Shown here: piece after piece, positions 58,787 through 63,232 of the stretch
Layout: every line of letters starts with the position of its first letter
Numbering within the stretch: the stretch's first letter is position 1
Assembly: GCF_038396675.1 (NCBI RefSeq)
Contig: NC_088930.1
Location: forward strand, 36,304,501 to 36,368,500
Direction of reading: 5' to 3'
DNA length: 64,000 nt
Source: Hydra vulgaris
Taxonomy: Eukaryota; Cnidaria; Hydrozoa; Anthoathecata; Hydridae
The notes under the pieces: generated by a model
Seen by the model: only the letters and a program-made list of their open reading frames with translations
The model's database searches: none
What the model was told of the DNA's origin: nothing
Translations under genes and position numbers: made by a program

Positions 58787-59040
58787 GTACGTAGTATCAT
58801 TGTCTAACCAAGCCAGTGCGTCTCATAATCACGGACGCGTTTCGCCCTCTGGGACTTATCAGCGCGATGATGTGGTACCGAAGGTGTAAACACACCAGCT
58901 CAGGTTCTTGGCAGATCAATGATACTTGTGGTGCTAACAATCCATACACAGAATTGTATAAACCTAAATATTTGAAAAAATGTACCAACCACGGTACGGC
59001 ATTCACATGACGACTAGTAATTACTAGTACAGAAAATTGG
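58787..59040 (-). repeat. Hammerhead-bearing repeat unit, inverted copy
   Basis: This is the same sequence as the plus-strand unit (59164 onwards plus 62930-63104) but in the opposite direction. It runs from the TACGTAGTATCATTGTCTAA end through the ribozyme and a ggtacggcattcacatgacg part to the actagtaattactagt palindrome near 59013. Confidence 0.8.
58820..58878 (-). ncRNA. Hammerhead ribozyme, type I, mutated core
   Basis: On the minus strand the core reads CTGATAA, then the stem II block GTCCCAGAGGGC, then GAAACGCGTC. It has the same arrangement as the two plus-strand copies, but the conserved G of CTGATGA is A. That position is essential, so this copy should not self-cleave. Confidence 0.75.
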
Positions 59041-59118
59041 TGTATATAAATAATACGTAGTATCATTGTCTAACCAAGTAAGTGCGTATCACAATCACGG
59101 ATTGTTTACACACCTTCG

Positions 59119-59177
59119 GTATCACATCATCACGCTGATGAGCTCCAGAGGGCGAAACGCGTCCGTGATTGTGATAC
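59119..59177 (+). ncRNA. Hammerhead ribozyme, type I
   Basis: Stem I 5' strand GTATCACATCATCACG; core CTGATGA at 59135-59141; stem II block GCTCCAGAGGGC; GAAA at 59154-59157; minimal stem III ACGCGT; cleavage triplet GTC ending at 59163; stem I 3' strand CGTGATTGTGATAC. Stem I pairs 6 bp, then a 2-nt bulge, then 8 bp. The very short stem III is the form known to act best as a dimer. Stem II has one weak pair in this copy. Confidence 0.85.
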
Positions 59178-60045
59178 GCACTGACTTGGTTAGACAATGA
59201 TACTACGTATTATTTATATACACCAATTTTCTGTACTAGTAGTTACTAGTCGTCATTAGGGCAGGTCGAATTGAAACTTTTTTTCGATTTCAGTGTTTGG
59301 CATTATGGAGATAATTTCTAAACAGTCCAAAAACACATCCTGGAAAATTTTATGAAATTAAAATAGTTTCTTCATGAGCGATTTTAGCTTTGAAGTTGGG
59401 TCCTAAGGCTTTCCGCGCAACATTTACTGCGGCATTGTATTATAAATTCAGGACCCAACTAATTTATTAATAAAATAAAACAAATAAAAAGCAAAAGGAC
59501 TGACAGTTACTTAGAAATAAAGAAAAACAAAATAAAGTACTCTAAGTCAAAAAAATATTTTTTTTTTCTAAGTTAGATATTCATACTTTAACAAAAATCT
59601 TTTGTAAATTCTGGTCCGGATTTTATAAAAAAAACGCAATTTTAAAATGTTGAAAATTTGTTTAATGGTTATATCAGGGGTCTAAAACTGTAATCCTGCG
59701 GCTCTTTTTTTAAAATTATTTAATGAATATTTATTTTAACTATTTAATGAAAAACCCCTCAACCTTAAATAGGTTGCCGACGCCTGGGTTATATAATAGA
59801 ATATTTGTAAAATAGAAAACTATCTTAATTATTTCAGATAAGTTAAATTTTAATAACGATTATTAAAAACCTTTGAAATAACTGTCAAAATTTTAAATTA
59901 TATAAAAGATTCCATAAAAAAAATTGCATTCAGATCTTTTTATTTATTAAGAACCACGCGAGGTAATGACTAACTCAAAAATTATTATACATTTTTATTA
60001 AAGTTTAATTTTACATGTACAAGTAGCAATAAATTAGTTTTTAAA

Positions 60046-61685
60046 TTAACAAAAAATATCATCATATGTCTCACCGTAATAACGTTTAGACATAAAACTC
60101 TTTCTATGTTTTTTGCTTAGAATTTTTGCTAAAATATGCTTATGACGTGCTTCCTTTCCAAAAACAGTACGAAAAGCCATAGAAACAAGTTGTACAGATC
60201 TCTCAACACTCTGTGAATGTGAAGGAAGACCTGTGAGGTCAATTTTTTCTCCATATATAACTTTTCCTATAACTTTTCTACTATCTCTTCATCAGTAATA
60301 TCTTGAGTTGTTGCTGGTTCATCTATGTCTTCATCAAAAATGTTTATGAGCTCATACCATATATGAGCATCAATGTTAATTTCTGGAATTTTATTAATTC
60401 TGTTTATAACTTGGCCATCTTTATTACGATTTCTAATATCAAGTAATCTCTGCATTGCTATTGATCTTATATATATTTCCTCTGACTTTAACATTGAGTA
60501 CAAAATATTCTCAGGAAGTAGGCAAAAAGTATTGAACCTTAAGTTTGCTAAGCAAATATCTTGCACCTCTTTTCCTTGGAGCTTGATTTGGTTAATCATA
60601 AAATATATAACTGATGGAGCTTCGTGTAACTTATTGCTCTTCTTATGGAGGAACCATGTAGGAACATAGACTTGGACAATATAGGTTACCAAAATAATTA
60701 ATTTAGAATCAGGAACTAGTACTCGGACATATAAAGACATCAACCGTATTGCCAATGTTAACCAACGTGAATGATTAAGGGGACCAATTTTCCAACTTGA
60801 ATATTTAACACTCATATTTCCAGTGGCAATTGCAATGCAATATTCATATAAAAGCCTCTGGTCACTACTTAAATCATCTAAAATTTCTTTTTCTAAAACA
60901 ATAATTGGAGACTTAATAACACCATAATTAACAACTAAATTAAGCTCATTATTGATATTTGCCATTTTACCTAAAGGTCCAGCAAAATGGTTTGGTGAAT
61001 TAGTTACTCCATCAATTTTTTTAAACAAAGATCTAAAGGGAAGCTCATTCTGATGAAGATTGCAGCCTATAGTATGAAGTTTTCGTCCTAGTTTTTTCTC
61101 TAACTCCACAACCATTCCTGCTTTATGACCTGTGTTTGTGGAAGTATTGTCTGCCAAAACTGCTTTTAGAGTGTTTAAAGAATCATACTCTTCAAGAACT
61201 TCGTATAGGCACTGAGCTTGCTTTTTTCCTGTTGCTCCAACAAGAGGTAAAACTTTGTGAGTAAGATACTCCCCACTGTAAAGGTTAGGGAGAAGTTCTT
61301 TAGTCACAGTCATTTGATGTTCTTTCTCTGTTAATCTCTTTAACACAACCTCACCATCTTCTCTTTTTATTTCTCTTATAACTAAAGTTTCATTATCAAT
61401 TTTACCATCAACACAAAGGCAAACAAACTCTCTGTTATTTTCAAAGGATTTTAAGTCTGACAATACTTTAACTGACTTTTTTTGTCTGTCTATTTTGGAT
61501 TTGTTTAAAACTAAACTTGATATAATTGCTGGATCATTAAACAGTCCTGATAGATCGAGCAAAAGAGCATTCCCTAATGCAGCTCCAATCGAACTTCCTA
61601 TATCGTTTCTGATCAACTCAATAGCAAACTTTGGAAACTTCCAAAGATTGTAAATTCCTGATGGACTTCTTGCAGGCTCCCATAT
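60046..61685 (-). pseudogene. hAT-like transposase, exon 3 (catalytic region)
   Basis: After a TTTTAG acceptor the exon reads IWEPARSPSGIYNLWKFPKF. A 449-residue frame (61616-60267) follows. It contains CLCVDGKIDNETLV (likely first Asp), AVLADNTSTNTGHKAGMVVE (second Asp region), LGRKLHTIGCNLHQNELPFR, and PLNHSRWLTLAIRLM. Near 60267 the frame shifts and continues LPSHSQSVERSVQLVS (likely Glu region) to a stop at 60046-60048. I recall these lines from a widespread invertebrate hAT-like family with N-terminal cysteine-rich domains. Only one frame break was seen in this exon, so decay is slight. Confidence 0.72.
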
Positions 61686-61810
61686 CTAAAAGAAAAGTTA
61701 TAAAGTTAATTAACAAAAAAATTTTATATAAAAAAGTGATATGTTAAAAAAAAGAAAGCAAATTTAAAAAATGTAACAATGAACTAAATTTCGATTTATT
61801 AGTTAATTAC

Positions 61811-62043
61811 CTCACTTGAGCTAGAAATAACAGATTCTGAATCAGATTCTGATAATACTATTTCTGGAAGTAAATTAAATGTTTCTTGTTGTAATGATTG
61901 TTCCATATTTTTATGTTCAGTTTTATGTTTCTTTAAAGATCTTTTTCTAGACCTTTCACAATCAACTGAGCCAAGTTGAAATGATCCTTTAGGACCTGAC
62001 TTATCTCTCTGGTTTTTAAATATAACCTTTCTTCTACAGGAAC
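61811..62043 (-). pseudogene. hAT-like transposase, exon 2
   Basis: Between an ATTTAG acceptor and a GAG|GTAATT donor. Reads VPVEERLYLK, then, after a one-base shift in an A5 run, NQRDKSGPKGSFQLGSVDCE and a basic and acidic linker (LPEIVLSESDSESVISSSSE). It joins exon 3 in phase. Confidence 0.62.
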
Positions 62044-62185
62044 CTAAATATTATTTGATAATATTGAGAAATTGCATATGAATTTCATAGTATTAAACTT
62101 TATCACTCTAGTAATATACTTGTGTTCATTTTATTTAAAAAAAAACTTTTATTTTATTTATCTATTATTAAAAATAACATAGTAC

Positions 62186-62722
62186 TTTTTTATCTGGACT
62201 ACATGTGCATAAAATATGAGTATTAGGACAATTATCTTGACTACATTTGATATTTTTATCATTACAAAGTACAACTTTAAGGTCACATGTGCAGGAAGTG
62301 ATATCAAAAAGCCTATCCAATTTTTTAGAAGTGTTTTTCTCTATTAATACTTTGCATTTTCTTCGGTTAATTAACCTGGATAAGTTTAGAAGTACTCCAA
62401 CTTTTTTTTCGACACAATATGTGGACATTAATGGTAGCCGACGGTTAACTTTTTTCCCAATCATGATTACTTTTTCAGCTATCAGTTTTACAATTACGCT
62501 AAAGCAATAACTTGGATAGGTATTGTTAAGAAAATAAAAATCTTGAATAATCTGTCTGTTTGTGGGTGGTTCTGTATTTGCAAGAGGGTTAGGACTTCCA
62601 CCAAACTTGCTTTTTGTGCAACTTCGTGTTTTACGCTTGTTTGAAAACATTATTTTTTGTCCACAAAACTTTCTTTTCCCCACACAATTATAACATTTGT
62701 TTATTTTGCGTAAGTGCGGCAA
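62186..62722 (-). pseudogene. hAT-like transposase, exon 1 (cysteine-rich N-terminus)
   Basis: The frame runs from 62722 (preceded by a stop, no ATG; the first ATG is at KIMFSNKRK) to a donor AAA|GTACTA at 62185. It has a YNCVGKRKFC start and a C-terminal cluster (TSCTCDLKVVLCNDKNIKCS then CPNTHILCTCSPDKK), probably a zinc-binding module. Any further 5' exon was not identified. The start is uncertain. Confidence 0.6.
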
Positions 62723-63059
62723 TCTTTAATTTGTATAAAAATGTAAGTGATAAAGATGGCGTTGCAAAAAAATTTTTAATTAAATATACCAATATTTAAA
62801 ATCATTTTAGCTCAACTTAAACTTCATTAAAACAAAAAAAATTTTACCAAGCACATTTTTTTCACCTATTAATCAAATCTCTTTATTACCAAACCCCTGA
62901 TTCCAAAATCGACCTGCCCTAGTCGTCATGTGAGTGCCGTACCGTGGTTGGTACATTTTTTCAAAAATTTAGGTTTATACAATTCTGTGTATGGATTGTT
63001 AGCACAACAAGTATCATTGATCTGCCAAGAACCTGACCTGGTGTGTTTACACACCTTTG

Positions 63060-63118
63060 GTATCACATCATCACGCTGATGAGTCCCAGAGGGCGAAACG
63101 CGTCCGTGATTGTGATAC
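63060..63118 (+). ncRNA. Hammerhead ribozyme, type I, intact core
   Basis: Core CTGATGA at 63076-63082, stem II GTCCC-AGA-GGGC, then GAAACGCGTC with predicted cleavage after 63104. Stem I pairs GTATCACA/ATCACG with CGTGAT/TGTGATAC. All conserved core bases are present. This is the best of the three copies. Confidence 0.88.
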
Positions 63119-63232
63119 GCACTGACTTGGTTAGACAAGGATACTACGTATTATTTTAATACACCAATTTTCTGTACTAGTAGTTACTAGTCGCCATGTG
63201 AGTGCCGTACCGTGGTAGGTACATTTTTTCAA

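Follow-up and report, generated by a model that had tools for sequence, protein, structure and literature searches.

Anatomy of the locus

The window analysed in this study is a 64-kb stretch of the Hydra vulgaris genome (contig C11, positions 36304501-36368500, of a 911.5-Mb genome in 15 contigs), and towards its right-hand end lies a locus built from a non-coding unit of 268 nucleotides (nt) that carries type I hammerhead ribozymes. Two arms made of this unit meet head-to-head between two (TA)n tracts, and the plus-strand arm is split by a later DNA transposon. The features of the locus, in window positions, are as follows:

58737-58782, no strand: left (TA)n tract, in which the minus arm ends (from sequence and repeats)
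58783-59101, minus strand: minus arm, a complete unit and some 57 nt more; its outer 3' end is site A (TATATA) and its 5' end is a hammerhead cut (CCGTGATT...)
58828-58868, minus strand: type I hammerhead (Rfam RF00163, 27.3 bits), with the G8A core CTGATAA, predicted inactive; cut 58834/58833
59101-59105, no strand: head-to-head junction of the arms, with a few bases without clear origin
59104-59256, plus strand: first part of the plus arm, comprising the 3' part of unit 0, hammerhead 1 and the first 93 nt of unit 1
59129-59169, plus strand: type I hammerhead 1 (RF00163, 31.3 bits), cut 59163/59164, stem III palindrome ACGCGT
59215-59220, plus strand: site A of unit 1 (TATATA, unit nt 52-57), an arm end point in other copies
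59257-62921, minus strand: later hAT-like DNA transposon within the plus arm, 3665 bp, terminal inverted repeat TAGGGCAGGTCGA, with an 8-bp target duplication (GTCGTCAT) at 59249-59256 and 62922-62929; the class is judged from the ends and the duplication only
62930-63236, plus strand: second part of the plus arm, comprising the remainder of unit 1, hammerhead 2 and the first about 130 nt of unit 2; its outer 3' end is site B (CAAATAT)
63070-63110, plus strand: type I hammerhead 2 (RF00163, 36.2 bits), cut 63104/63105
63231-63330, no strand: right (TA)n tract, in which the plus arm ends (from sequence)

The predicted RNA 5' end at the hammerhead cut reads CGUGAUUGUG. An earlier, sequence-only reading of this stretch had described three hammerhead cores (CTGATGA twice on the plus strand and CTGATAA once on the minus strand), forward cut sites 268 bp apart and (TA)n tracts on both sides, and all of these were found again; the cut-to-cut distance on the plus strand is exactly 268 nt once the 3665-bp insert at 59257-62921 is removed. 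The stem II block GTCCC-AGA-GGGC of that reading is present in two copies but not at 59135, which reads GCTCC-AGA-GGGC and still pairs. The unit has a GC content of 40% and no protein-coding frame, the longest stop-free stretches around the circular unit being 70 aa (plus strand) and 74 aa (minus strand).

The head-to-head arms at 58777-59256 form a near-perfect inverted repeat (95 nt at 98% and 118 nt at 89%). A transcript across it would form long double-stranded RNA, which could feed small-RNA silencing.

The family in the genome

With the unit as a DNA query, at least 112 matches were obtained, grouped into at least 37 regions; 40 of 81 candidates were scored, and these copy numbers are lower bounds. 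A genome-wide family of such units, which the sequence-only reading had made a test of its proposal, is therefore present, and the covariance-model search that it had suggested gave RF00163 matches both at the locus and genome-wide, where 4 of the 14 matches come from this family. Anatomy was studied in a sample of 36 loci, including the window, after L054 (a duplicate of L052) and the second copy at L071 had been left out of the arm counts; arm pairs and outer ends were merged by hand, and the short arm of L063 was included. At L071 the same two-armed insertion is present twice, 1.1 kb apart, a local duplication after insertion.

Two arms are present at 22 of the 36 loci, and in all 22 they lie head-to-head, the minus arm to the left of the plus arm, so that the RNA 5' ends are inside and the 3' ends outside. 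Thirteen loci are one-armed, L048 is unclear, its two arms being 1.2 kb apart, and there is not a single tail-to-tail pair in the 36 loci. The 61 arm segments end at two preferred places: 24 at site A (nt 53-60, centred near unit nt 57), 28 at site B (nt 122-145, centred near nt 130) and nine elsewhere. The true end at B is near nt 128-134, the wider range arising because alignments run on into the (TA)n tract. Three of these 52 A/B ends (in L010, L014 and L069) are inner breaks rather than outer ends; when only outer ends are counted (n = 59), 23 are A, 28 are B and eight are other, with the outer plus end of L010 (aligned to nt 156) taken as B because its alignment ran on into the tract.

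The insertion preference for (TA)n that the sequence-only reading had proposed is borne out by these 36 loci. (TA)n follows 42 of the 52 A/B ends, with inner breaks making up three of the ten misses, while 3.3% of background windows, taken from stretches more than 700 bp from the arms, are equally TA-rich. The two ends are also paired: of the 17 loci in which each outer end is at A or B, 16 combine an A with a B, one is B/B (L062) and none is A/A (p 1.4e-4 if ends were independent), and five of the 22 two-armed loci have one end other than A or B. This pairing is most naturally read as the two ends of the target drawing on a single RNA, on which they cannot occupy the same site. The unit has its main runs of alternating TA at A and B, so that their position does not separate annealing to (TA)n from choice by a protein. 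Selection of the sites by a protein is favoured by L070, where the same A and B ends occur with a possible 6-bp duplication (TATTCA) but no (TA)n.

More than one unit is contained in 18 of the 61 arm segments, but none exceeds 480 nt, so that these are partial dimers only, and no array of three same-direction units was found in the loci read. Circles are therefore a good, if unproven, way for the element to regain length. A DNA transposon with fixed ends was rejected as an explanation, given that the inner joints vary among loci, and a 192-base piece of the locus had no match in phage records.

One joint, at L009:2740-2840, is a palindromic head-to-head joint centred near site A, as if the complementary DNA (cDNA) had primed itself. 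A second hammerhead family (CTGAAGAGTCC...GGACGAAACAATATTGTC), also with a palindromic stem III, is present in the genome at L001-L007, L011 and L012. Most of its copies look one-armed and 5' truncated and reach a TA-rich end about 10-20 nt past the cut, several of these ends being long (TA)n.

Hammerhead detection and predicted fold

The RF00163 model gave three matches in the window, two on the plus strand and one on the minus strand. Only that at 63070-63110 exceeds the gathering score of 34, the 31.3- and 27.3-bit matches lying below it; its E-value over the whole window is 2e-5, and a chance origin of the hammerheads was therefore rejected. A fold-back microRNA was likewise rejected, MIR4387 scoring 27.2 bits against a cut-off of 84. 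A search for the hammerhead pattern gave 19 matches in stretches of bacterial and archaeal DNA and none in viral contigs.

Stem I of both plus-strand copies comprises 14 base pairs and a 2-nt bulge, stem II comprises four base pairs, and stem III is the palindrome ACGCGU without a loop; loop II reads CAGA/CAAA and, with the bulge of stem I, might take part in loop 1-loop 2 contacts. A monomer is unable to close a loop-less palindromic stem III, so that cleavage should need two RNAs, and the modelled route is through an RNA dimer paired at the palindrome. In the predicted two-RNA fold, 6 bp are paired at stem III and both stem I helices form between the strands. For the 63076 copy the catalytic dimer fold is 3 kcal/mol above the best dimer (-48.3 versus -51.3), while it is 7.4 off for the 59135 copy and 19 off for the decayed minus copy. 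The 268-nt circle has a fold more stable than 199 of 200 shuffles (z -2.9), and its best fold does not contain the catalytic form. Dimer action is known in amphibian hammerheads and has been proposed for Penelope-associated ones (PMC7761336).

Taken as a whole, the hammerhead shows slightly lower conservation than the remainder of the unit, which at first looked contrary to function (L072 and L075 are left out of the conservation and read-through counts). An ATG sits in the hammerhead 26 nt upstream of the cut, and the frame from it ends after 20 and 26 codons in the two plus copies. From what is known of the hammerhead core, a changed G8, as in the minus copy, predicts a dead ribozyme. In a Penelope-like element of the anole, single C3 and G8 mutants are described as inactive (PMC11167929).

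Signs of ribozyme cutting in genomic copies

Six of the 61 arms begin within 3 nt of a hammerhead cut (p 0.005). At L049, L067 and L069 the arm spans B to the first cut only, and the minus arm of the window and L046 each pass one defective hammerhead (G8A and a stem III of ACGAGT, respectively) and stop at the next cut.

A second sign comes from the core itself. Young copies were defined as those with at most 3% change outside the ribozyme (24 hammerhead passages in 17 loci, L072, L074 and L075 excluded), and in these G5 or G8 is altered in 10 of 48 cells, compared with 27 of 2714 elsewhere when seven subfamily-variable sites are left out; G5 and G8 then rank first and second of 243 positions. 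With the seven sites kept, the contrast is 10/48 versus 61/2800 (p 1.5e-7), and G5 and G8 rank eighth and ninth of 250, right behind those seven. Inclusion of older copies gives 13/78 versus 139/5939, a count that leaves out the diverged L072, L075, L055, L074, L057, L050 and L073 and the seven subfamily-variable positions. The changes fall in seven of the 17 young loci and, over all copies, comprise 12 changed passages in 11 of 31 loci, ten of the 12 having an unchanged nearest relative; those in L058 and L066 may go back to a single event. The choice of G5 and G8 was made after the sequences had been seen, and a broader test over ten non-CpG core positions gave p 0.009.

This excess suggests that dead ribozymes are over-represented among the RNAs that were copied, which is what would be expected if live ribozymes cut the template. 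Under relaxed constraint alone, the rate would equal that of the background rather than exceed it several-fold, and loss of the ATG could account for the G8 changes but not for those at G5. Whether the genome in this way records ribozyme action in vivo is, from sequence evidence, an even call: read-through hammerheads with a dead core (G5/G8) would be favoured as templates, cutting and transposition would be in conflict, and copies would drift towards dead ribozymes, with a Penelope-like enzyme priming both target strands on one RNA at A and B.

Mode of insertion and alternative explanations

What the copies show directly is the anatomy, the two fixed ends with the way they pair, the flanking (TA)n and an over-representation of dead cores. 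Together these features are best explained, with a probability of about 0.7, if the locus arose by a single insertion of a non-coding, retrozyme-like Hydra element of 268 nt, moved by a Penelope-like enzyme priming at A and B; the retrozyme-like, non-autonomous nature that the sequence-only reading had given the unit is supported by the anatomy of the 36 loci. Read-through transcripts or circles would carry the hammerhead, and some of these RNAs would be cleaved when two of them pair at the palindromic stem III. A Penelope-like reverse transcriptase with a GIY-YIG endonuclease would open an AT-rich target, usually (TA)n, on both strands, and the two target ends would prime cDNA synthesis at internal positions of the RNA, namely A (57 nt past the cut) and B (about 130 nt past it). 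Both cDNAs would extend towards the RNA 5' end, and once their far ends had been joined the arms would lie head-to-head, one ending at A and the other at B. Where the ribozyme had already cut, the cDNA would halt at the cut; where it was dead or slow, the cDNA would read through for up to 1.8 units.

Head-to-head arms and two fixed 3' ends point to Penelope-like machinery. In a rotifer, Penelope-like elements are described as having inverted pseudo-long terminal repeats (pLTRs), with an optional extension, or tail, on one of them, and as preferring simple AT-rich targets (PMC3846280); in the Hydra family, inverted arms are found in 22/22 two-armed loci and a 3' tail on one arm in 16/17 loci with A/B outer ends. 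The purified anole Penelope-like protein is reported to cut and extend both strands of AT-rich DNA and to start reverse transcription inside the RNA (PMC11167929). A candidate for such an enzyme was found in a genome search for GIY-YIG, which scored 150 of 349 candidates and gave at least 28 matches; a separate motif search of the window gave no GIY-YIG hit. One of the loci, L080, lies in (TA)n with inverted ends. Its open reading frame, 778 codons long, includes a GIY-YIG domain (27.1 bits, cut-off 22.6) and a YVDD box, but has no RVT_1 match in Pfam at E<=0.001 and nothing in PDB or NCBIfam; from its domain order and what is known of such elements, this frame is taken to be Penelope-like. 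Compared with the fetched unit loci and the window (tblastn, E<=0.01), its protein matched only pieces in L058 and a weak stretch in L059 (28% identity), and nothing between units or in the window, a search that more distant Penelope-like frames could escape. The pieces at L058:124-473 are two broken, inverted Penelope-like frame fragments with 69-70% identity to L080, about 1.2 kb from the unit insertion.

Several observations weigh against movement by a Penelope-like enzyme together with ribozyme cutting. No hammerhead was found at E<=2 in the three such loci read, L078-L080 (L078 and L079 being readable in part), so that they give no sign of signals in common with the unit; nor was a Penelope-like frame with the unit as its pLTR found in the loci examined. 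A and B match (TA)n, unlike the start site of the anole enzyme, which is not homologous to its target. The 5' ends of 55 of the 61 arms are scattered rather than at the cut, which weakens the cut as a general setter of arm 5' ends; one of the six ends at the cut, that of L065, may reflect a change of strand within stem I, and p rises to 0.02 when it is left out. The core is intact in 20 of the 43 read-through hammerhead passages, which implies that cutting is incomplete, as expected if dimers are needed. Finally, compensatory changes in the stems were absent among 20 hammerheads (helix counts).

The same traits could belong to an autonomous Penelope-like element with a hammerhead, of which the unit would be a solo pLTR and not a separate retrozyme. 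Penelope-like elements likewise have a tandem order, an AT-rich target and head-to-head arms of which one bears a tail; the ATG of the hammerhead precedes the cut by 26 nt, as reported for the anole element (PMC11167929); and L058 has the two broken L080-like pieces near its units. This is nevertheless judged improbable, as the L080 protein matches nothing between units at the threshold used (a more distant frame could escape), the frame that opens at the ATG is 20 and 26 codons long in the two plus copies, and the 4.7-kb insert at L069 is LINE-like (long interspersed nuclear element) by its FADD-type frames.

Twin priming by a LINE also yields inverted arms, and the same family could have been moved in this manner on one RNA rather than by a Penelope-like enzyme; LINE-like frames are indeed present in the window and in L069. 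The arm ends inspected, however, have no poly-A, and the rule of a tail on one arm has been described for Penelope-like elements (PMC3846280), which leaves LINE movement a somewhat poorer prospect than the solo pLTR. Tracts of (TA)n are unstable and are present at most ends, and the inner joint of L009 is palindromic, as might follow if a tandem retrozyme array had been broken and inverted within the microsatellite, without reverse transcription from fixed sites. Such rearrangement is very hard to reconcile with the same two ends recurring across chromosomes, always head-to-head if two-armed and nearly always A with B, and with L070, which shares these ends without (TA)n.

Other features of the window

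The hAT-like insert at 59257-62921 has a transposase-like frame, which is split, and its two longest frames had no match in Pfam. A 449-aa frame within it shares 97% identity with Hydra vulgaris LOC136076138; other relatives mostly share 30-53%, one of them from the limpet Patella caerulea (46%). Broken retrotransposon frames at 42506-47181 match DUF1759, DUF5641 and an integrase core, and are presumably of the Pao/BEL class. Degenerate short repeats of about 16 bp (GCACTTATGCCA-like) lie at 58004-58158.

Comparison with known systems

Metazoan non-LTR retrozymes, for which corals, jellyfish and anemones are among the reported hosts, have been described as low-GC (<50%) repeats of 150-450 bp, at least dimeric, with a type I hammerhead (Cervera and de la Pena 2020, PMC7229834). 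The Hydra unit is alike in its type I hammerhead, short length, low GC content, dispersal, lack of coding capacity and, in part, dimeric state. Expression as self-cleaved linear and circular RNA also characterises that group, and for the Hydra unit the arm starts at the cut and the G5/G8 excess may be indirect signs of it. The metazoan retrozymes are described as lacking long terminal repeats (LTRs), a primer binding site (PBS) and a polypurine tract (PPT) (PMC7229834). The Hydra unit differs from them in that the arms of two-armed copies meet head-to-head and have two fixed 3' ends, mostly in (TA)n, and in its loop-less stem III; in a term search of the main text of PMC7229834, the words Hydra, inverted and microsatellite were absent. 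The plant LTR retrozyme, with a type III hammerhead in its LTRs, a PBS and a PPT, is not matched, the type I model being the one that fits (no search aimed at a PBS or PPT was made). Satellite hammerheads of amphibians (newt, axolotl) also have a weak stem III that needs a dimer (as described in PMC7229834), but that of Hydra is a bare 6-nt palindrome and its host is a cnidarian.

Penelope-like elements share the head-to-head arms, the tail on one arm and the AT-rich target (PMC3846280; PMC11167929), and also the cutting and extension of both strands, an internal start of reverse transcription and a minimal hammerhead with an ATG in its core. The Hydra unit differs from what is described there in having no reverse transcriptase or endonuclease frame and in start sites that match the target. 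Penelope-like elements were named in 2020 as a strong helper candidate for retrozymes on indirect grounds (PMC7229834), and a review states that animal retrozyme repeats show no conserved motif from which the helper could be deduced, the enzyme that moves them being given there as open (PMC7761336). The two fixed priming sites, the tail rule and the (TA)n targets turn the guess of a Penelope-like helper into testable predictions.

In the open-licence literature searched, no paper was found with both retrozyme and Hydra vulgaris, and a mention of Hydra magnipapillata in PMC6431247 concerns a Ginger DNA transposon. Among the titles and abstract openings listed from that literature, none mentioned an excess of dead ribozymes among insertions. 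The G5/G8 excess is a sign of animal ribozyme activity that can be drawn from genomes alone, and would be usable in others with such repeats. Set beside these systems, the unit fits the metazoan non-LTR retrozymes, a known kind, and what is new is the anatomy of the family in 36 loci.

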